Shown piece after piece: positions 38,266 to 48,366 of a DNA stretch of 64,000 bases. Every line of letters begins with the position of its first letter. The first letter of the stretch is position 1. The notes under the pieces are model-generated. The model was not told the origin of the DNA, did not search any database, and saw nothing but the letters and a program-made list of their open reading frames with translations. The translations under genes and the position numbers were made by a program. Source of the stretch: Blattabacterium cuenoti (GTDB lineage Bacteria > Bacteroidota > Bacteroidia > Flavobacteriales > Blattabacteriaceae); the NCBI RefSeq assembly GCF_014251695.1, contig NZ_CP059195.1, forward strand, positions 186,001 through 250,000. Reading direction: 5' to 3'.

Positions 38266-39330
38266 ATGAAAGTACACAATTTCAATGCAGGACCTTCTGT
38301 ACTTCCGAAAGAAGTTATTGAAAAATCAGCTCAATCTGTAATGAATTTTAATGGGACGGGATTATCTTTACTTGAGATTTCTCATAGAAGTATAGATTTT
38401 TTAGAAATTATAGAAAAAGCTACTCTTTTAGTAAAACGTATTATGAATTTAAATAATGATTATGCTATTTTATTTATTCAAGGAGGAGCTACATTACAAT
38501 TTTCAATGGTTCCATACAATTTAATGAATCAAAAAGCAGCTTATTTAGATACAGGATTTTGGGCCTATAACGCTATTAAGGAAGCTAAAAAATTTGGAAA
38601 AGTAAAAGTTTTATTTTCCGGTAAAAATAAAAATTATACATATATATCAAAAAATTATCATATTCCATGCGATATGGATTATTTTCATTGTACATCTAAT
38701 AATACAATAGTTGGAACACAAATGAAAATATTTCCTAAAACATCTATTCCAATAGTCTGTGATATGTCTTCTGATATTTTTAGCAGAGAATTAAATTTTT
38801 GTCAATTTAGTTTAATTTATGCTTCGGCGCAAAAAAATGTAAGTTCTGCAGGAATGACTATAGTGATTGTGAAAAAGGATATTTTAGGAAAATTTAGAAA
38901 AAATATTCCTTCTTATATAGATTATCGAATTCATATACAAAATGATAGCATTTTAAATACTCCAAATGTTTTTTCTATTTACACTTCTATGTTGACTTTG
39001 GAATGGATAAAAAATCAAGGTGGTCTTTCTACTTTAGAAAAAAAAAACCAGTATAAAGCTAAATTATTATATGATGAAATAGATCAAAATAATTTGTTTG
39101 AAAATAAAATACATAAAGAAAATCGTTCTAATATGAATGTTACCTTTTTTTTAAAAAATAAAAATCTAGAAAAAGAATTCAATAAAATGTGGAAAAAAGA
39201 AAATATTGTGGGATTAGATGGTCATAGATATTTAGGTGGATATCGTGCCAGTATATATAATGCACTTCCATTAAAAAGTATTCAATTCCTCATTGAAATC
39301 ATGAAAGAATTCGAAAGAAAATTTTCATAA
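38266..39330 (+). CDS. serC: Phosphoserine aminotransferase
   Basis: 354 residues. NFNAGPSVLPKEVIEK, LFIQGGATLQFSMVPYN and YASAQKNVSSAGMTIVIVKKD (PLP lysine) are conserved, as is GLDGHRYLGGYRASIYNALP at the C-terminus. Makes phosphoserine for serine and glycine (and through gcvH one-carbon units), and may also serve PLP synthesis. The stop TAA overlaps the yggS ATG by one base. Confidence 0.96.
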   Translation: MKVHNFNAGPSVLPKEVIEKSAQSVMNFNGTGLSLLEISHRSIDFLEIIEKATLLVKRIMNLNNDYAILFIQGGATLQFSMVPYNLMNQKAAYLDTGFWAYNAIKEAKKFGKVKVLFSGKNKNYTYISKNYHIPCDMDYFHCTSNNTIVGTQMKIFPKTSIPIVCDMSSDIFSRELNFCQFSLIYASAQKNVSSAGMTIVIVKKDILGKFRKNIPSYIDYRIHIQNDSILNTPNVFSIYTSMLTLEWIKNQGGLSTLEKKNQYKAKLLYDEIDQNNLFENKIHKENRSNMNVTFFLKNKNLEKEFNKMWKKENIVGLDGHRYLGGYRASIYNALPLKSIQFLIEIMKEFERKFS

Positions 39331-39992
39331 TGAAATACGTAATAGAAAATCGATTTTTGAGAATAAAAAAACTGATTCCAAAAAATGTAAAAATTTTAGC
39401 AGTTTCTAAAAATCAAGATTTGTCTTCTATAGAAAAATTATACCGAGTAGGACATAGAGATTTTGGGGAAAATTATATTAAAGAAATGGTGGAAAAATAT
39501 AAAAAATTACCTAAAGACATTCGATGGCATATGATTGGGAGAATTCAAAGTAATAAATTAAAATATATAATACCTTTTATTCATTTAATTCATAGCGTTC
39601 AAAGTACAAAACAAATAAATATAATAAATAGAATAGCATTTAAATATAATAAAATTATAAACTGTCTTTTACAAATAAAAATTTGTAATGAGAAAAATAA
39701 ATCAGGAATAACTTTTCAAGAAGCTTCCAAAATATTGGAAAATAAAACTTCAAAACATATGAAAAATGTTAAAATAATAGGGATTATGGGGATCGCTTCT
39801 TTTCAAGAATTAACAAAAGTAGATGATGAATTTTTATATTTACATAAATTGTATAATGAATATAAAAATAAATACGGACATTACATCCTTTCTATGGGAA
39901 TGAGTAGAGATTATGATTTAGCTATAAAATATGGAACTACAATTGTTAGATTAGGTACTTTAATTTTTGGAGATAGAACAAAAACTATCTGA
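39330..39992 (+). CDS. YggS-family PLP-binding protein
   Basis: 220 residues, single-domain fold type III PLP protein (YggS/PROSC/PLPBP). ILAVSKNQDLSSIEKLY contains the PLP lysine; DFGENYIKEMVEKYKK, WHMIGRIQSNKLKYI and LSMGMSRDYDLAIKYGTTIVRLGTLIFG are characteristic. Members balance free PLP and have no known enzyme activity. Cotranscribed with serC, a PLP enzyme gene. Its last 8 nt overlap the convergent trpA. Confidence 0.93.
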   Translation: MKYVIENRFLRIKKLIPKNVKILAVSKNQDLSSIEKLYRVGHRDFGENYIKEMVEKYKKLPKDIRWHMIGRIQSNKLKYIIPFIHLIHSVQSTKQINIINRIAFKYNKIINCLLQIKICNEKNKSGITFQEASKILENKTSKHMKNVKIIGIMGIASFQELTKVDDEFLYLHKLYNEYKNKYGHYILSMGMSRDYDLAIKYGTTIVRLGTLIFGDRTKTI

Positions 39993-40752
39993 TAGATTTT
40001 ATATATTTTTTTATACTTTCTTCCAGTTTATCATTATCTAATGATTGTATAAAAGAACTTCCAATAATCCCTCCATTAGCATATTGACATGATAAATCAA
40101 AAGTTTTTTTATCGTTGATCCCAAACCCAATCAATTTTGGAATATTGATTGACAATTTTTTTATACGTTCAAAAAAAGATATTTGTTGTTTTCCAAAAAT
40201 AGTATGACTACCTGTAGTAGAATTAGAAGAAACTATATATAAAAATCCATCACTTATTTTACTTAACATAGATATTCTGGATGAATTAGTTTTTGGAGTA
40301 ATTAAAAATATCATAGATAATAAATATTTTTTAAAAATATTTTGATATTTATGCAAAAAAATATCAACCGGGAGATCCGGTAAAATTAATCCAGAAACAC
40401 CTGATTTTTTGCAGTTTTTTAAAAATTTAATTTTTCCAAATTTATAAAATTGATTGTAATATCCCATAAGAACAATGGGAGTTTTTATTTCTCCTTTTAA
40501 TTTCTCTATTTGATCAAATAATAAAGAGATGTTCATTCCATTGTTTAACGAAATTTGATTACTTTTTTGTATAATCATTCCATCTGCTAAAGGATCAGAA
40601 TAAGGGATCCCTATTTCAATTAAATCTACAGAAAGATTTTGCAAAATTTTTATTATTTTTCCTGTACTATTTAAATAAGGAAATCCTGCTGTAAAATAAA
40701 TGCATAATATGTTTTTATTTTTATTTATAAATAAATTATGAATTTTATTCAT
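39985..40752 (-). CDS. trpA: Tryptophan synthase alpha chain
   Basis: 255 residues from ATG 40752 (MNKIHNLFINKNKN), which overlaps the trpB stop by 8 nt in the usual coupled manner. LIEIGIPYSDPLADGMIIQKSN carries catalytic Glu and Asp; the loop region GFLYIVSSNSTTGS and GIIGSSFIQSL phosphate site are present. Cleaves indole-3-glycerol phosphate and passes indole to TrpB. Last gene of the trp operon. Confidence 0.96.
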   Translation of the reverse strand: MNKIHNLFINKNKNILCIYFTAGFPYLNSTGKIIKILQNLSVDLIEIGIPYSDPLADGMIIQKSNQISLNNGMNISLLFDQIEKLKGEIKTPIVLMGYYNQFYKFGKIKFLKNCKKSGVSGLILPDLPVDIFLHKYQNIFKKYLLSMIFLITPKTNSSRISMLSKISDGFLYIVSSNSTTGSHTIFGKQQISFFERIKKLSINIPKLIGFGINDKKTFDLSCQYANGGIIGSSFIQSLDNDKLEESIKKYIKSIR

Positions 40753-41938
40753 TATTTGATAATTTAACAAAAAATTTGTCATAAATATTAATATCTTTAT
40801 CTCCTCTTCCAGACAAAGTAACGATTACTATATCCTCCTGTTGTAGAGGTATTTTTTTTAATGCAGCTAATGCATGTGCACTTTCTAAAGCAGGAATAAT
40901 TCCTTCTAATCTGGTTAATTCATATCCAGCTTGTATAGCTTCTTTATCTGTAGAATGTAAAAAATTTACACGTTTTTGAACAAAAAGATTAGCAAACATA
41001 GGTCCAATTCCTGGATAGTCTAATCCAGGAGAAACAGAATAAGCGGGAATAATTTGACCGTCTTCGTTCTGTAAAATAAATGTCATGCTTCCATGTAATA
41101 TCCCTTTAGATCCGCAGTGAATAGCCGCAGCTGTTTTTTTAGTTTTAATACCTAAACCAGAAGCTTCTACGGCTATAAGATGAACAGAATCATTCTCTAA
41201 GAAATGATAAAAAGATCCCGCTGCATTACTACCTCCTCCTATACAAGCCACTACATAATTAGGGAATGAACATCCTTCTACTTCTTTTAATTGTACTTTA
41301 ATTTCTTCACTTATAATAGACTGAATATCTGCTACCATTTGAGGATAAGGATGAGGCCCTACTGTGGACCCTATTAAATAATAACTATGAGGATGATTAA
41401 TCCAATAACGAATAGCTGCATTTACTGCATCTTTTAGCGTTTTATTTCCGCTAAAAACTGGAATCACTTCAGCACCGAGAGATTTCATTCTTATTACATT
41501 ACTATACTGACGTTTTATATCTATTTCTCCCATAAAAATTATGCATTCTAAATGCATTAATGCACAAATAGTAGCTGTTGCAACCCCATGTTGTCCAGCT
41601 CCTGTTTCTGCAACAATTTTTTTTTTCCCTAATTTTTTTGCTAATAAAGCTTGACCTATAGCGTTATTGATTTTATGCGATCCTGTATAATTTAGATCTT
41701 CTCTTTTAAGATAAATTTTAGCATTATATTGATTGGAATATTTTTGGCAAAAAAATAAAGGGGTAGGTCTACCTACATAATTTTTTAGCAATTTTTTATA
41801 TAGTTTTTGATATTCACTACTTGTAATAAATTTTTTATATTTGTATTGTAATTCTATTATATTAGAATGTAACATTTCAGGAATAAAAGCGCCTCCAAAT
41901 TCCCCATAAAATCCGTTTTTATCAACAAAATAATTCAT
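40745..41938 (-). CDS. trpB: Tryptophan synthase beta chain
   Basis: 397 residues. LKREDLNYTGSHKINNAIGQ holds the PLP lysine, AETGAGQHGVATATICAL the catalytic region, and CIGGGSNAAGSFYHF the phosphate-binding GGGSN. Condenses indole with serine to tryptophan. Complete; overlaps trpF by 4 nt. Confidence 0.97.
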   Translation of the reverse strand: MNYFVDKNGFYGEFGGAFIPEMLHSNIIELQYKYKKFITSSEYQKLYKKLLKNYVGRPTPLFFCQKYSNQYNAKIYLKREDLNYTGSHKINNAIGQALLAKKLGKKKIVAETGAGQHGVATATICALMHLECIIFMGEIDIKRQYSNVIRMKSLGAEVIPVFSGNKTLKDAVNAAIRYWINHPHSYYLIGSTVGPHPYPQMVADIQSIISEEIKVQLKEVEGCSFPNYVVACIGGGSNAAGSFYHFLENDSVHLIAVEASGLGIKTKKTAAAIHCGSKGILHGSMTFILQNEDGQIIPAYSVSPGLDYPGIGPMFANLFVQKRVNFLHSTDKEAIQAGYELTRLEGIIPALESAHALAALKKIPLQQEDIVIVTLSGRGDKDINIYDKFFVKLSNNE

Positions 41939-42561
41939 AATTCTCTTATTTTTTTTATAAAGGCATTTAATTTTAAATAATCTTTTTTTCCTGGAAAAAT
42001 TTCAAATTTGCTATTAATATCGATTCCAAACATTTTTGAATGCGAAAAATTTTTTATTTTATCCAAATCTTGTATTCCAATTCCTCCACTTAAGAAAAAT
42101 GGGACTTTAAAAGTGTATTCATGAAGTTTTTCCCAACAAAATTTTTTACCACTCCCTCCATAATAAATAGTATTACTATCAAATAAAAAATAAGTACAAA
42201 AAGGAATGTAATTTTTAATTTTATTTAAATGAAAAAAATTATCTATTCTAAAACCTTTAATTAATTTTAATCCTTTTTTGAATAATTTTTCACAATAAAA
42301 AGGACTCTCTGTTCCATGTAATTGAATAAAATCTAGTTTATTTTTTTGTTTAATTTTCAATACATTTTCTTCTGATTCATTAACAAAAACTCCTGTTTTT
42401 GATATTTTTTTTTTAAGTTGGGGAATAATAAAATCAAAGCCTACAAATCTAGGCGAATTAGGATAAAATATAAAACCAATAAAATCAGGAAATAAATCAG
42501 AAATTTCTTGTATATTAAATTTTATTCCGCATATTTTAACTTTCAATAACGGGGATTTCAT
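41935..42561 (-). CDS. trpF: Phosphoribosylanthranilate isomerase
   Basis: 208 residues, TIM barrel. LKVKICGIKFNIQEI (catalytic Cys), FIFYPNSPRFVG, DFIQLHGTES and FLFDSNTIYYGGSGKKFCWE (catalytic Asp, GGSG phosphate site) are preserved. A separate gene rather than a TrpC fusion, as in other Bacteroidota. 1 nt after trpC. Confidence 0.94.
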   Translation of the reverse strand: MKSPLLKVKICGIKFNIQEISDLFPDFIGFIFYPNSPRFVGFDFIIPQLKKKISKTGVFVNESEENVLKIKQKNKLDFIQLHGTESPFYCEKLFKKGLKLIKGFRIDNFFHLNKIKNYIPFCTYFLFDSNTIYYGGSGKKFCWEKLHEYTFKVPFFLSGGIGIQDLDKIKNFSHSKMFGIDINSKFEIFPGKKDYLKLNAFIKKIREL

Positions 42562-42562
42562 A

Positions 42563-43366
42563 TCATCTATTCATTAGTATTTTTTTTGATAAAGACTCAA
42601 GAAAAAATTGACAAATTTTTCCAGGATCTTTTTCTTTCATAAAATATTCTCCAATTAAAAAACCTTTAAATCCTTGTTTTCTTAATTTTAATATGTGATT
42701 AACATCATCAATGCCACTTTCTGCAATTTTTATATAATTATTAGGAATTTTTGAAGACAATCTAAAACAATTATCATAATCTACAGTAAAAGTTTGTAAA
42801 CTTCGATTATTAATTCCTACAATATCCAAATTATCTGTAATCTTATCTACTTCAAATTCATTATGAATTTCAATAATTACTTCTAAATCCAAAGTTTTTG
42901 CAAGTTTAGAAAAACTATTTATCTGATTTTTAGAAAGAATTCCGGCAATTAATAAAATTACATCAGCTCCTATAGATTTAGACTCTATAATTTGATATTC
43001 ATCAATAATAAAATCTTTTCTTAATATAGGAATAGAAACTATAGAACGTGATTTTTTTAAATTTTCATTTTCACCAGAAAAAAAATGTTGGTCTGTAAGA
43101 ATAGATATACCACTAACTCCTGCCGATTCATAATCGTGAACTATTTTTTCTACTGATGTCGTATTATTATTAATAATTCCTTTAGATGGAGACTTACACT
43201 TAAATTCTGCAATAATACCAGTATGGCTTATTCTTATATTTTTTACGAGAGATAAAGTTTTTCTTTCAAAGAAAGAACTATTTTCCAATTTTTTTATAGG
43301 ATGTAGAATTTTGTTTTTGGATACCTCTTTTTGTTTGATAAAAATAATTTTTTCAAGAATATTCAT
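42563..43366 (-). CDS. trpC: Indole-3-glycerol phosphate synthase
   Basis: 267 residues, TIM barrel. GIIAEFKCKSPSKGIIN (catalytic Lys), VPILRKDFIIDEYQI, DIVGINNRSLQTF and IKIAESGIDDVNHI cover the strands of the active site. Overlaps trpD by 4 nt. Confidence 0.96.
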   Translation of the reverse strand: MNILEKIIFIKQKEVSKNKILHPIKKLENSSFFERKTLSLVKNIRISHTGIIAEFKCKSPSKGIINNNTTSVEKIVHDYESAGVSGISILTDQHFFSGENENLKKSRSIVSIPILRKDFIIDEYQIIESKSIGADVILLIAGILSKNQINSFSKLAKTLDLEVIIEIHNEFEVDKITDNLDIVGINNRSLQTFTVDYDNCFRLSSKIPNNYIKIAESGIDDVNHILKLRKQGFKGFLIGEYFMKEKDPGKICQFFLESLSKKILMNR

Positions 43367-44361
43367 AAACTTAATAATTTTTTTAGAATATTCTTTGCTT
43401 TTCCACTTTTTAATGAACGGTTTGCTTTATCATAATTATTTTCAAGACTATCTTTATTTAATAAACTTAATGCAAATGTGGCATTTGTTAAAACTACTTT
43501 ATTTTGAGCTAAAGTTCCTTCTCCAGATAAAACACTAGTAAATATACGTATATTTTCTTCTGTATTTTTTCCTCCTATCAATTCATGAGGATTTATTTTC
43601 ATCTTTTTATTTCCTATTTCTAATTCTTCTATAGAATAAAATCGTTCTCCTTTCGGACTATAACATTTGACATCACTGGTAAGTGTTATTTCATCATACC
43701 CATCTAAACTATGAATGATTGCGTAATTATTTCTCGTGTTTTGATACATATAATAATATATTCTTGCTAATTCTAAATTATTGACTCCTAACAATTGATT
43801 TTTTGGGTTTCCTGGATTTAATAATGGACCAAGTGTATTAAAAATAGTTTTCATTCCTAGTTCTTTTCTAATTTCAGATACAGTGCTCAATACAGGATGA
43901 AATATAGGTGCATGTAAATAACAAAAACCTATTTTATCCAATTGATTTTTCAAATTCTCTTCTTTATTAGTAAAATGATATCCTAATCCTTTTAATATAT
44001 TTGAAGATCCAGTGATAGAGGAAGAATTAAAACTTCCATGTTTTATAACTTTTTCTCCTGTCCCTGCTACTATAAAACACGCTAAAGTAGAAATATTAAA
44101 AGTATTTTTTCCATCTCCACCTGTTCCTACAATATCTAGTGCATTAAATTCTTCAAGATTAATTCTTATAGAGACTTCCATTATAGCTTGTCTAAACCCT
44201 ACTATTTCTTCTAAAGTTGGGTTTCTCATATTATATATAGTAGTTATAGCTACGATTTGTGTTTTATTAATTTTTCCTTTTGATAATTCTATAAAAAGAT
44301 TTTTAGCTTCCTGTTTTGTCAATGTTTTTTCTAAAAAAAGATTTTCTAATATTTTATTCAT
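43363..44361 (-). CDS. trpD: Anthranilate phosphoribosyltransferase
   Basis: 332 residues from ATG 44361 (MNKILENLFLEKTL), 2 nt after the trpG stop; an ATG at 44382 would overlap trpG. DIVGTGGDGKNTFNISTLA is the PRPP/metal signature, followed by KHGSFNSSSITGSSNILKGLG and NTLGPLLNPGNP. Unfused to the TrpG domain. Confidence 0.96.
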   Translation of the reverse strand: MNKILENLFLEKTLTKQEAKNLFIELSKGKINKTQIVAITTIYNMRNPTLEEIVGFRQAIMEVSIRINLEEFNALDIVGTGGDGKNTFNISTLACFIVAGTGEKVIKHGSFNSSSITGSSNILKGLGYHFTNKEENLKNQLDKIGFCYLHAPIFHPVLSTVSEIRKELGMKTIFNTLGPLLNPGNPKNQLLGVNNLELARIYYYMYQNTRNNYAIIHSLDGYDEITLTSDVKCYSPKGERFYSIEELEIGNKKMKINPHELIGGKNTEENIRIFTSVLSGEGTLAQNKVVLTNATFALSLLNKDSLENNYDKANRSLKSGKAKNILKKLLSL

Positions 44362-44363
44362 AA

Positions 44364-44942
44364 TTAATTTAAATTCAACCAATTACCTATTATTTTTTCT
44401 CCATATGGAGTTAAAATAGATTCTGGATGAAATTGGACTCCACGTACATCATAAAATTTATGACGTAAAGCCATAATTTCTCCTTTCTTTCCAATAGCTG
44501 TAATCTGAAGATCTTCAGGAAAATTATGTGGAGAAATAATCCAAGAGTGATAACGTCCAACTGTAATTTCTATAGGTAATTTTTTAAATAAAATTTCTTG
44601 TGAATCTACAATTTTGATTAAACTAGATATTCCGTGATATACCTCTTTGGTGTTTAGAAGAGTTGCTCCAAATACTTCTCCTATTGCTTGTAAACCTAAA
44701 CAAACTCCCAAAATACTTTTAGTAGAAGCAAAAGTTTTCACTAAAGGTTTTAAAATATGCGCTTCATCAGGTATTCCAGGTCCTGGAGAAAGAATAATTT
44801 TATTATATTTTTTTACATCCGTAAGTTTAATTTCGTTATTTCTAGAGACTTGTATAGGATTTTTGGTTAATTTTTTTACAGCATGTACGAGATTATAAGT
44901 AAAAGAGTCATAATTATCCAAAATTAGTATTTTATTCATCAT
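44364..44942 (-). CDS. trpG: Anthranilate synthase component II (glutaminase)
   Basis: 192 residues. ILDNYDSFTYNLVHAV, ILSPGPGIPDEAHI, ILGVCLGLQAIGEVFGA (nucleophile Cys) and GVQFHPESILTPYG (His-Glu) are intact. Supplies ammonia to TrpE. It could also serve as PabA in folate synthesis if a PabB partner exists elsewhere. 6 nt after trpE. Confidence 0.95.
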   Translation of the reverse strand: MMNKILILDNYDSFTYNLVHAVKKLTKNPIQVSRNNEIKLTDVKKYNKIILSPGPGIPDEAHILKPLVKTFASTKSILGVCLGLQAIGEVFGATLLNTKEVYHGISSLIKIVDSQEILFKKLPIEITVGRYHSWIISPHNFPEDLQITAIGKKGEIMALRHKFYDVRGVQFHPESILTPYGEKIIGNWLNLN

Positions 44943-44948
44943 AATACT

Positions 44949-46364
44949 TCATATATTTTTAGCTAATTCTATAGCTTTAAATAAGGCCATCAACTTATTA
45001 TTTACCTCTTCTAATTCTTTTTTTTCTTTAGAATCAGAAACGATACCTGCTCCAGCTTGAAAGAACAGAGTATTATTTTTACTTATAAAAGAACGAATCA
45101 CTATGGCAGTATTAATACAAGAATTATTGAATCCAAAAAAACCAATAGCTCCTCCATATACCCCTCTATTTTGATTTTCAATTTTATCAATCAATTCCAT
45201 AGCTTTATATTTAGGTGTTCCAGAAAGAGTTCCCGCAGGAAAAGTATCACCAAATACTTTTATAATTGATGTATTTTCTTCTACTTTTCCAGATACTTTA
45301 GAAACCATATGTAATACATGAGAAAAAATTTGAATTTCTTTAAATACTTCTACTTTTACGTTGGAAGAATTTTTACTCAGATCATTTCTAGCTAAATCTA
45401 CTAACATAACATGTTCTGCATTTTCTTTTAAATTATTTGTAAGATATTTGGATAATTTTTTATCCTTCTCTTTATCTCCTGATCTTTGTATAGTCCCTGC
45501 TATTGGATTTATATAAGCTTTTTGGTTATTAATGATGAGTTGTGATTCTGGAGAAGAACCAAATAATTTATAGCTTCCATAATCGAAATAAAAAAGATAT
45601 GGAGAAGGATTTATAAATCGCAAAGTACGATATACATTAAATTCATCTCCTTTAAATTTTTGTTGAAATTGACGAGATAATACAATTTGAAAAACATCTC
45701 CACGTAAACAGGCTTTTATTCCAAGAGATACCATTTTTTTATACTCTACATCTGTTACATTTGAGTAACGATTCCCAATAGATTTAAATGGAAAAGATGA
45801 AAAATTTTTCTTTTGAATCAATTCTATCAATTGATTTATGTAAGTTTTTTTTTCAATATTATAAAATTGATGTTCAATTACATATATTTCATGATGAAAA
45901 TGATGGAATACAATCAAGTTTTTGTAAAAACCAAATCGGATCTTAGGAAGATTATATATTTCTTTAATTGGAGCGTGAAATTGAATATTTTCAAAATATT
46001 GAATACTATCATAAGATATATATCCATATAAACCTGAGTAATAATGAGAAATGCTTTTATTTTCATTTTTAAATTTTTGAAAAAAATCCTCTATGAAAAT
46101 TTTTATATCTAATTTATCATTTATAAAAATATGTTTATGAACACAATTAGGATATGATATTCGTAATACATTTTGATCTAAAATAAGTTCAGAAACTGGA
46201 TTTAGACAAAGAATGGAAGAATTATTTTTGGAAATTTTATAATCAGAAAATTCTAATAACAATGTATTAGGAAAAATATCTCTTAGTTTTAAATATAATT
46301 CTATTGGTGTAGTACTATCCGCCAAAATTTTTTTCTGAATAGTTCTAAAATTAAATTTAAACAT
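44949..46364 (-). CDS. trpE: Anthranilate synthase component I, with altered feedback motif
   Basis: 471 residues, chorismate-binding fold. Catalytic sequences are intact: NPSPYLFYFDYGSYKLFGSSPE, PIAGTIQRSGDKEKD, AEHVMLVDLARNDL, TFPAGTLSGTPKYKAMELID and GVYGGAIGFFGF. The N-terminal regulatory element normally reads LLES (Ser40 in enterobacterial TrpE, where Ser-to-Phe is a classical feedback-resistant change). Here it is LLLEFSDY with Phe39 at that place, so inhibition by tryptophan is probably lost or weak (inference). First gene of trpEGDCFBA; a leader with a terminator hairpin lies upstream. Confidence 0.96.
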   Translation of the reverse strand: MFKFNFRTIQKKILADSTTPIELYLKLRDIFPNTLLLEFSDYKISKNNSSILCLNPVSELILDQNVLRISYPNCVHKHIFINDKLDIKIFIEDFFQKFKNENKSISHYYSGLYGYISYDSIQYFENIQFHAPIKEIYNLPKIRFGFYKNLIVFHHFHHEIYVIEHQFYNIEKKTYINQLIELIQKKNFSSFPFKSIGNRYSNVTDVEYKKMVSLGIKACLRGDVFQIVLSRQFQQKFKGDEFNVYRTLRFINPSPYLFYFDYGSYKLFGSSPESQLIINNQKAYINPIAGTIQRSGDKEKDKKLSKYLTNNLKENAEHVMLVDLARNDLSKNSSNVKVEVFKEIQIFSHVLHMVSKVSGKVEENTSIIKVFGDTFPAGTLSGTPKYKAMELIDKIENQNRGVYGGAIGFFGFNNSCINTAIVIRSFISKNNTLFFQAGAGIVSDSKEKKELEEVNNKLMALFKAIELAKNI

Positions 46365-46395
46365 GTATTATGGCATTTTGATATATATATATGAT

Positions 46396-46424
46396 AAAAA
46401 AAAGGCTGTCATAAAGACAAGCCT
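46396..46424 (-). terminator. Terminator hairpin in the trpE leader (candidate attenuator)
   Basis: Read on the minus strand: AGGCTTGTC-TTTAT-GACAGCCT (46424-46403), an 8-bp stem with one bulged T, then T8 (46403-46396), 32 nt before trpE. A second hairpin (9-bp stem, 46449-46428) lies just upstream, giving tandem stems as in attenuators. A 7-codon frame, 46476-46453 (Met-Lys-Met-Arg-Phe-Phe-Asn), ends 3 nt before the first stem but has no Trp codon. The region is divergent, so only trp transcription can be affected. Confidence 0.7.
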
Positions 46425-46427
46425 AAA

Positions 46428-46449
46428 AAATATTGTTTATACAATATTT
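46428..46449 (-). other. First hairpin of the trpE leader
   Basis: AAATATTGT pairs with ACAATATTT (9 bp perfect, 4-nt loop), 3 nt upstream of the terminator stem on the minus strand. It could be a pause or anti-terminator-side structure; it does not overlap the terminator stem in sequence. Confidence 0.55.
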
Positions 46450-46501
46450 ACTTTAATTGAAGAATCTCATTTTCATTCTAGATAAAGATAGAAATGACAC
46501 T

Positions 46502-46509
46502 CAAATATA
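46502..46509 (-). promoter_or_regulatory. Candidate -7 box for the trp operon
   Basis: Minus strand TATATTTG, the same octamer as upstream of hisG, 138 nt before trpE and upstream of both leader hairpins. No matching TTG at 17-23 nt. An 8-bp inverted repeat CTATTTGT...ACAAATAG (46522-46529/46541-46548) lies between it and the divergent porin gene. Confidence 0.4.
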
Positions 46510-46569
46510 AATAAATTTTTTCTATTTGTGAAAATAAATTACAAATAGTCCAATTTATAATTCGATTAT

Positions 46570-48366
46570 ATGACAATAATCCTTTTGACTTTCTTCCTTT
46601 TTGTATCTCCTAATATGGGAGAAAAAAAAACAGAAAATGTGGAATTTTATCATCCTACTTATCAGGATTACAAATTTTGGACAGAAGAAAATAATCTAAA
46701 AAAATTTTTTTTAGAAAAATCTTTTTCCATAAAAAAATATTATTCTCATAATTTCTTTAAAAATGATAATATTGGGTATTTTTTAAATAAAAATCTGTTT
46801 ATTCCTAATAAATACGAAACATATATACGAGAAAATTTTAACGAAAACATGCCTAAAAGAATATTTTTTTTTAAGGATCCTTTTTTTTATCGTGAAAAAA
46901 TTCAATATTTTGATGTTAAAACTCCTATTACAGAAATTTTTTATATAAATAATTTTTTCGAAAAAGAAAAAACATTAGGTGGTTTTTTTTCTCAAAATTT
47001 TAATGAAAAAATTAATTATTCCATAGAATATAGAAACTCTAATTTAAAAAATGAACTTGACTTAAAAAAAAGTAAAGATTTAGCATTAGCGACCTTTAAT
47101 TATCAAGATAAAAAAAATAATTACAATTATAAATTATGGGGACATTATATTTATCAAAAATTTTATATAAAAGAAAAAGAAGAATTTCCAAAATGGAATA
47201 TTAGAAATTATGAAAACATTTTTTTTTATCATAAAAAATTAATTCATAGAAGATTTTATATAAATTTTGTTAAAAAAATTTATTCTATACAAGAAAAAAA
47301 TAGATCATTATTTTTGAAAACTTATATGGAATATGAAAAATATTCTAAAGGTCATTTATATCAAAATTTACAAAAGAAAATCAATCATTATTATTTAAGA
47401 AATGGTTTATTTTTAATTTTTAATCAAAAAAAAATCAATATAGAAGTAGGATCTATTTTTGATAGAATACATTATCAATTATTAAATAACATATTTTTTA
47501 ATAAAAATAAAAATATCAATAGTTTATCAATACAAACAAAAGTCCATTATCCTATTAATAATGTTTTCGAATTTTATTCAAATGGAAAATGGATTATAGA
47601 AAATAATAATATTAAAAAATCTCATATTCAGGCTAATATTGTGTTAAATACATTTTTAATTTCCAAATTTCGCTTTTTCACTCAATTTAGAATTAATGAA
47701 AATAATAATGGTATTTACAATAATTTTATTCCTATTCATGTTTTAAAAAATAATCAAGATTTTTATAAAAATGAACAAGAAAATATATTTTTTTTTAACA
47801 GAGAAAAAGTTCTAAATTTTTATTTAAGTTCTTATGAAAAAAAATATTGTATTTTTTTTTATATATCTAGATTGAATCATTCTTATCAAGATGATAAAGA
47901 AATAGAAAAATTTTTATATCGTAAATATATCCACTTATATGGATTTAAAATCGAAACGACACATGATATATGGAAGTTTCAATTAAATAATATTTTATTA
48001 TATCAAAAATATAATTCTGATCCATTAATTTTTTCTATTCCAAATTTTTTATATAGAAGTACAATATTTTATAAAAATAATTACTTTCATAAAGCGTTAT
48101 TTATACAAACAGGTTTTTCTTTTCATTATTTAAGTAAATTTGATCACCAAAAAATTTATTATCCTTTTAATTTTAAAACTTTTTTTAAAGAAAAAGAATG
48201 TATAAAAAATAAAATTGGAGGAATTCCTTTTGTTGATTATTTCTTTAATTTTAAAATATATAGAACTATATTTTACTTCAACATTCAAAATATAGGATTT
48301 TATGACATTTATAATCCTAATAAATTATTTATTAAAACAGGTTTTTTATGGAATCTTTTTACTTAA
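46570..48366 (+). CDS. Putative outer-membrane beta-barrel porin (Porin_10-like)
   Basis: 598 residues, short N-terminal hydrophobic signal (1 to about 14), then a long aromatic-rich sequence with alternating polar and hydrophobic residues that suits a beta-barrel; it ends in an aromatic residue (IKTGFLWNLFT). The part FFFKDPFFYREKIQYF, DVKTPITEIFYINNF and GGFFSQNFNEKINYSIEYRNS resembles the 'putative porin' family of Bacteroidota (parallel to the DIYYYRVPTPLTELFY pattern). The gene is full of Lys, Asn and Phe, as expected from AT bias. It would allow small solutes through the outer membrane. Family call is by pattern memory and should be taken as probable. Confidence 0.65.
   Translation: MTIILLTFFLFVSPNMGEKKTENVEFYHPTYQDYKFWTEENNLKKFFLEKSFSIKKYYSHNFFKNDNIGYFLNKNLFIPNKYETYIRENFNENMPKRIFFFKDPFFYREKIQYFDVKTPITEIFYINNFFEKEKTLGGFFSQNFNEKINYSIEYRNSNLKNELDLKKSKDLALATFNYQDKKNNYNYKLWGHYIYQKFYIKEKEEFPKWNIRNYENIFFYHKKLIHRRFYINFVKKIYSIQEKNRSLFLKTYMEYEKYSKGHLYQNLQKKINHYYLRNGLFLIFNQKKINIEVGSIFDRIHYQLLNNIFFNKNKNINSLSIQTKVHYPINNVFEFYSNGKWIIENNNIKKSHIQANIVLNTFLISKFRFFTQFRINENNNGIYNNFIPIHVLKNNQDFYKNEQENIFFFNREKVLNFYLSSYEKKYCIFFYISRLNHSYQDDKEIEKFLYRKYIHLYGFKIETTHDIWKFQLNNILLYQKYNSDPLIFSIPNFLYRSTIFYKNNYFHKALFIQTGFSFHYLSKFDHQKIYYPFNFKTFFKEKECIKNKIGGIPFVDYFFNFKIYRTIFYFNIQNIGFYDIYNPNKLFIKTGFLWNLFT

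Follow-up and report, generated by a model that had tools for sequence, protein, structure and literature searches.

How a nutritional symbiont comes to overproduce a metabolite, by removal of feedback or by making more enzyme, is an old question. In Buchnera, trpEG is reportedly amplified, with a TrpE that is said to keep its sensor, while feedback-resistant trpE mutants of Salmonella were reportedly described by Caligiuri and Bauerle in 1991. In the Serratia enzyme, tryptophan is held by Ser40, Pro291, Met293, Val453, and Tyr455 (excerpt of PMC10464499), and in E. coli both S40F (excerpts of PMC3316586, PMC6527064) and the combination of Ser40Leu with Met293Thr (excerpt of PMC4306242) serve as feedback-resistant alleles. 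Upstream of the gene, the tryptophan leader of Bacteroidota is a known Rfam family, RF01692 (Bacteroid-trp). Here, we describe trpE and its leader in a stretch of 64,000 nucleotides from Blattabacterium cuenoti (NCBI RefSeq assembly GCF_014251695.1, contig NZ_CP059195.1, positions 186,001 to 250,000 of the forward strand; hereafter the window), and in the genus as a whole, which has repeatedly lost the very residue that is altered in laboratory strains to obtain tryptophan production.

The window trpE, at 44949..46364 on the reverse strand (-), encodes component I of anthranilate synthase with 471 amino acids. Positions 46248-46250 read AAA on the forward strand, giving TTT (Phe) at codon 39 (46248..46250 (-)) in the context LLLEFSDY, and alignment with E. 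coli K-12 TrpE places Ser40 on residue 39 and Glu39 on residue 38. The original prediction, made from the letters of the window, had proposed Phe at the Ser40 position, and both reading frame and alignment bear this out; a bulky residue at the Ser40 equivalent is the mark of the S40F class. The protein exceeds the Pfam cut-offs for Anth_synt_I_N (80.3 bits) and Chorismate_bind (251.5 bits), while its top NCBIfam model, TIGR00564, scores 406.1 bits, yet misses the trusted cut-off of 517.7, so the functional assignment is based on the two Pfam domains together with the operon context of trpG and trpD. The AlphaFold model (pLDDT 87.3) matches Salmonella TrpE (1i1q, Z 41.0) and tryptophan-bound Serratia TrpE (1i7s, Z 40.7 over 454 residues); PabB structures score slightly higher (Z 44.5), and thus the fold does not separate TrpE from PabB. 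Residue 39 lies near the end of strand 35-40 of the model, within LLEFSDY (residues 36-42; 46239..46259 (-)), the strand end and loop of the tryptophan site. Via E. coli numbering, the counterparts of the five Serratia ligands are Phe39, Pro255, Leu257, Ile407, and Phe409. The segment NPSPYLF (residues 252-258; 45591..45611 (-)) carries the counterparts of Pro291 and Met293, and YGGAIGF (residues 403-409; 45138..45158 (-)) those of Val453 and Tyr455, both segments being the same in relatives. Because Pro255, Leu257, Ile407, and Phe409 are also the commonest residues in other Bacteroidota (the best-match set defined below), only the Ser40 position among the five distinguishes the window enzyme.

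We searched 49 Blattabacterium genomes, of which 44 have an open trpE, and compared them with the best 80 of 587 confirmed loci, ranked by match to a Blattabacterium query; two of the 80 were themselves Blattabacterium, leaving 78 from other Bacteroidota. Since these loci were chosen as best matches, nearer relatives are over-represented among them, and many are metagenome-assembled genomes of unchecked lifestyle. The nearest named relatives of the window genome are B. cuenoti strains. All 78 loci carry Ser at site 39, in agreement with the original prediction, in which free-living relatives read LLESSDY; Phe, whose presence in relatives had been named there as a point against insensitivity, occurs in 0/78, which rules out Phe39 as an ordinary variant within this best-match set. 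The 44 Blattabacterium enzymes, by comparison, divide into Ser (15), Phe (10), Tyr (7), Thr (5), Ile (4), Leu (1), Met (1), and Asn (1). Invariance of 98% or more across the 78 relatives defines 131 TrpE sites; 95 of these are unchanged in Blattabacterium, and site 39 ranks first of the 131 with the most changes. Of the 131, the window enzyme itself is altered at 6, among which site 39 varies most in the genus, a selection for which any argument from chance must allow. Its loop neighbors, sites 41 and 40, have changed 11 and 9 times in the genus and are both in the top five of the 131, while Leu36 (43/44), Leu37 (43/44), and Glu38 (44/44) are retained, leaving residues 39-41 released. ESSD is intact in 9/44 genomes (G004, G005, G012, G017, G029, G031, G035, G040, and G044), plus G002 with an inserted Ser, and loops are longer or shorter in some Blattabacterium genomes. 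In addition to Glu38, nearly all other pocket residues are kept in the genus; the exceptions in the NPSPYLF wall are, in E. coli numbering, Ser for Pro291 in G003, Ile for Pro289 in G014, and Ser at Met293 in G006 and G014. In six other genomes of the same family, the site is Ser in two and Cys in two, with the loop deleted in two; a deletion of the loop after LLLE was noted at L186 and L187 (G051, G052), from other genomes of the family.

The history of site 39 was traced on a tree built from eleven other genes, with trpE excluded. With Ser at the root, 18 residue changes are required, and Ser was lost 13 times if the loss is irreversible, or at least 10 times after collapsing the 13 branches with support below 90; when regain is allowed, the minimum is 9 switches between Ser and non-Ser. 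Across the seven trp proteins, only 4 of 558 invariant sites reach at least 15 changes, namely TrpE 39, two sites in TrpD, and one in TrpF, with one of the TrpD sites and the TrpF site also reaching 18. Site 39 is therefore extreme but not alone among the trp-protein sites. Set against this turnover, trpE as a whole has an omega of 0.12, indicating purifying selection. Rates by site, obtained with our own grid script and with synonymous change possibly near saturation, give alpha 0.54 and beta 0.62 at site 39, with P(beta>alpha) 0.51, which places it 13th of 471 by beta and at an approximately neutral rate, while the adjacent site 38 (Glu38) has a beta of about 0.01. By this grid method, and with the same caution on saturation, positive selection at site 39 receives no support, and the near-neutral rate points to a release of constraint more than to an adaptation fixed for overproduction. 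The commonest codons at the site, TTT (10), TAT (7), and ACT (5), fit AT-ward one-step mutation from TCT. The replacements are mostly hydrophobic (23/29, or 0.79), compared with a mean of 0.35 at 157 variable Ser sites in twelve regional genes; among the 107 such sites with at least 10 replacements, 13 reach a hydrophobic fraction of 0.8.

The original prediction overlooked a further loss, that of the transcriptional tryptophan sensor. The trpE leader region (46365..46569 (-)), which lies between divergent genes, is without a leader open reading frame (ORF) having two Trp codons. In the leaders of relatives, an ORF with at least two Trp codons is found in 73/77, WW in 67/77, and WWW in 61/77, compared with 23/231, 2/231, and 0/231 after shuffling; some of the 73 (L071, L078, L102) seem to be the ends of other reading frames, making the WW count of 67 the stricter one. 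In Blattabacterium, 0/44 leaders have an ORF with two Trp codons and 0/44 have TGGTGG within 400 bases, while an ATG mini-ORF with a single Trp codon occurs in 5/44 and is taken as chance. As the Trp-codon sensor is gone from all 44, it was probably lost before the genus diversified. The RF01692 model, which as a positive control matched 7 of the 13 relatives scanned (one of the 13, L082, has only 146 bases before trpE), finds 0/44 Blattabacterium leaders at its gathering score, and the window leader gives no match up to E 10. RF01692 was likewise absent from six other genomes of the same family, and a scan of window positions 39000-47500 at Rfam gathering scores gave no match.

What remains of the attenuator is a bulged hairpin, AGGCTTGTC-TTTAT-GACAGCCT (46403..46424 (-)), followed by a T-run (46396..46402 (-)), a remnant of the Bacteroidota trp attenuator terminator. 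The window hairpin has a folding energy of -9.7 kcal/mol and, with up to 2 mismatches allowed, occurs only once in the genome. A terminator hairpin with a GGCTTGTC arm at or below -7 kcal/mol is present in 25/44 Blattabacterium leaders (L136-L178) versus 2/132 shuffles, and all 25 have one unpaired base in the 5′ arm. The short-armed form, GRC[AG]GCC, occurs in 25/44 Blattabacterium leaders and 0/77 relatives, while the perfect form occurs in 0/44 and 34/77, respectively (relatives counted with GGCTTRTC/GAYAAGCC). Terminator stems at or below -7 kcal/mol are found in 70/77 relatives, with a median of -17.0, versus 27/44 Blattabacterium, with a median of -10.3. A leader scan for sigma-70 promoters and stem-plus-T terminators returned no terminator, having missed this one because it permits no bulge, and its promoter-like matches (12, versus 8.5 +/- 3.1 in shuffles) were not used. 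Many Blattabacterium leaders (L136-L178) also have a short MVFFN-like ORF about 70-130 bases before trpE, which in the window is MKMRFFN (46453-46476 (-)). Separately, a ATGGTATT/AATACCAT pairing across Blattabacterium leaders could draw the leader to the trpE start; it is broken in the window.

Our preferred reading, to which we give a probability of about two in three, is that selection for tryptophan sensing at the trp operon ended in Blattabacterium, and that the Phe39 TrpE of the window is active and largely tryptophan-insensitive. It builds on what was read directly, namely residue 39, its history, its rate, and the absence of a Trp-codon leader. In the proposed course of events, the Trp-codon leader peptide of the attenuator would have disappeared upstream of every open trpE, leaving at most a weakened terminator. 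The tryptophan-holding Ser would be lost by drift in one lineage after another, with Phe taking its place in the window enzyme and Tyr, Thr, Ile, Leu, Met, or Asn in others, while purifying selection would continue to act on the catalytic parts of TrpE. Homology with E. coli S40F predicts that Phe39 fills the tryptophan pocket and leaves an active, insensitive anthranilate synthase, whose flux would presumably depend on the supply of chorismate, the amount of enzyme, and drainage by the host. Insensitivity is likely on this analogy and, with the Trp-codon leader also gone, the symbiont probably makes tryptophan without the usual brakes. Constraint may have ended because the host drains tryptophan too fast for inhibition to matter, or because overproduction was favored; the rate evidence prefers drain. 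The original prediction had gone further and read a fixed tryptophan-insensitive enzyme in the window. Its observation has turned out stronger than it could know, and its view that insensitivity is likely, from Phe at the sensing Ser and the S40F analogy, still holds, while the claim of a fixed adaptation is too strong given Ser in 15/44, seven other residues, and a near-neutral rate.

Several points weigh against this reading. The two TrpD sites and one TrpF site with at least 15 changes have no regulatory role known to us. Replacements that are mostly hydrophobic imply that site 39 is not wholly free, although a buried position could account for this bias without selection. Retention of Glu38 and the rest of the pocket is unexpected under full release of the site, unless these residues are structural as well. 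In the leader, conservation of the terminator in 25/44 could mean that some transcriptional control persists, and AT-rich genomes by themselves make TGG rarer and stems weaker in a comparison that is uncorrected for composition. Finally, biochemistry of any Bacteroidota TrpE was not found in the partial literature searched, so the sensitivity of the Ser form is assumed.

To ask how far erosion extends, the phenylalanine-feedback site of PheA offers a comparison within the same genomes. The motifs examined are those of phenylalanine binding in ACT-domain PheA. In 48 Blattabacterium genomes, Gly204 is kept in 48/48, Leu206 in 47/48, Gln224 in 48/48, and Ser225 in 47/48, so that the motifs are intact in 47/48; the exception, G043, a genome also lacking trpE and trpB, is changed at 206 and at 225-227, and G045 has Thr for Ser205, a position variable in relatives. 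The remaining genome of the 49, G016, gave no PheA domain match. Of 129 genomes searched, 33 in addition to the window genome matched; with G092 and G195 left out, they supplied a reference of 31 sequences, which, being small and diverse, yields only 30 invariant sites, none of which changes more than 2 times in Blattabacterium. Retention of the PheA motifs indicates that erosion of the TrpE sensor is selective; a general erosion of allosteric sites is unsupported, PheA being the only comparison enzyme. We lean, by a little more than even odds, toward the view that both layers of tryptophan feedback were dismantled, the Trp-codon sensor of the attenuator and then, repeatedly, Ser40, with phenylalanine feedback at PheA preserved. 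What most deserves further attention is that both tryptophan sensors are lost while PheA is spared.

It is conceivable, if doubtful, that loss of tryptophan inhibition was itself favored, with overproduction feeding the host and bulky residues selected again and again. The recurrence of Ser loss (13 times if irreversible, and at least 9 switches), the 23/29 hydrophobic replacements, a TrpE otherwise conserved, and a PheA site whose retention speaks against general erosion are all consistent with such selection. Site 39 nevertheless has no nonsynonymous excess over synonymous change, its codons are mostly those that mutation from TCT toward A and T would be expected to reach in one step, and Ser persists in 15/44. 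Lineages without Ser also have more departures elsewhere in TrpE (mean 7.0 versus 4.5 of 128 sites, p 0.002, kinship uncorrected), which looks like drift. Retention of Glu38 in 44/44 and of NPSPYLF in nearly all genomes, together with replacements that are non-random in character, would also suit a remodeled site with a changed mode of tryptophan binding or a different ligand. Seven different replacements, the 9 and 11 changes at sites 40 and 41, and varied loop lengths are unlike one new binding design, and we put little weight on this possibility. Slightly less improbable, though still unlikely, is that the sensor residue is an early casualty of a trp pathway becoming dispensable in the genus. 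Of the 49 genomes, 4 are without trpE and trpB and a fifth has a trpE remnant with 16 stops (L179-L182 and L132), these five representing four separate losses on the tree; a search for their other trp genes, confined to the neighborhood of ccoN, yielded only a trpE and trpG remnant in a single genome. In G010 (L176), an internal stop interrupts trpD and a frameshift disrupts trpB, with trpE open and carrying Phe39, marking either a freshly broken pathway or assembly errors. Against such a prelude to loss, lesions of this kind in trpB or trpD are absent from 43/44 genomes with open trpE, although two of these have a split trpF; TrpE has an omega of 0.12, and the genus shows no change at 95 of the 131 invariant sites.

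A last alternative concerns folate, and we regard it as very improbable. If the genome is without PabB, TrpE:TrpG would also have to make the folate precursor, and inhibition by tryptophan, which would then starve folate synthesis, would be selected away. The chorismate-binding enzymes of the window genome are only TrpE and a MenF-like one, from which it follows that PabB is lacking, yet folP is present; many of the larger genomes of the order have three chorismate-binding enzymes, and others one or two. In the available excerpt of PMC9603385, the para-aminobenzoic acid (PABA) branch is assigned to TrpE and PabA, and TrpE is reported lost in strains CPUbr and MADAR. Against shared duty as the driver, folP is present in 4 of the 5 genomes without intact trpE and absent from G006 and G014, both of which keep a TrpE with Ile39; folP is thus uncoupled from trpE, folate demand does not track site 39, and synthesis of aminodeoxychorismate by Blattabacterium TrpE is itself only putative. 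This combination of folP with only two chorismate-binding enzymes, which leaves PABA without an obvious source, was noted with reference to G000:C1:447666-448391, outside the window. The end of selection for tryptophan sensing remains our preferred account.

In the window, trpE heads an uninterrupted seven-gene run, trpE-G-D-C-F-B-A, ending at 39985. Family searches identify trpG, a glutamine amidotransferase (44364..44942 (-)), and trpD (43363..44382 (-)), while trpC (42563..43366 (-)), trpF (41935..42561 (-)), trpB (40745..41938 (-)), and trpA (39985..40782 (-)) are named from reading frame and operon order and have orthologues in the genus. This unbroken run accords with the intact operon of the original prediction. 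A single PF04715 match was found in the 630,624-base, single-contig genome (a plasmid outside the assembly is possible), which rules out trpE amplification for the assembly and fits the suggestion in the original prediction that deregulation stands in place of amplification. Elsewhere in the genus, trpF is split by a frameshift in L138 (G012) and L145 (G046), the latter also having a split P-type ATPase gene; slippage, error, or decay may each account for these splits. In the separate lineages L141 (G042), L159 (G045), L183 (G055), and L188 (G066), trpF and trpB form one open frame of about 600 residues, possible TrpF-TrpB fusions.

In the partial literature searched (titles and the starts of abstracts), no published report of tryptophan-sensor loss in Blattabacterium was found, and neither 'trpE' nor 'tryptophan' appears in the main text of PMC6128925, which treats selection in eight genomes. 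If our reading is true, the 44 enzymes of the genus, some with Ser and others without, form a natural series in which to measure symbiont deregulation, and the idea is directly testable with enzymes and hosts, since it is at this single residue that related genomes differ. Compared with the described systems, the Blattabacterium enzyme resembles E. coli S40F in having Phe at the same aligned residue among conserved surrounding residues. Unlike that laboratory allele, its change is a natural and repeated loss to seven residues, and its insensitivity is predicted from sequence. Like RF01692, the leader has a GGCTTGTC-bearing hairpin and a T-run immediately before trpE, but it differs in being without a Trp-codon leader peptide, in giving no gathering-score match, and in a stem that is bulged and weaker. 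As with trpEG amplification in Buchnera, a nutritional symbiont would here be relieving the first step of tryptophan synthesis. Unlike Buchnera, Blattabacterium has one trpE copy in the assembly, has lost the Ser, and keeps the PheA site, so that, should both layers of tryptophan feedback indeed have been dismantled, the two symbionts would be mirror images of one another.
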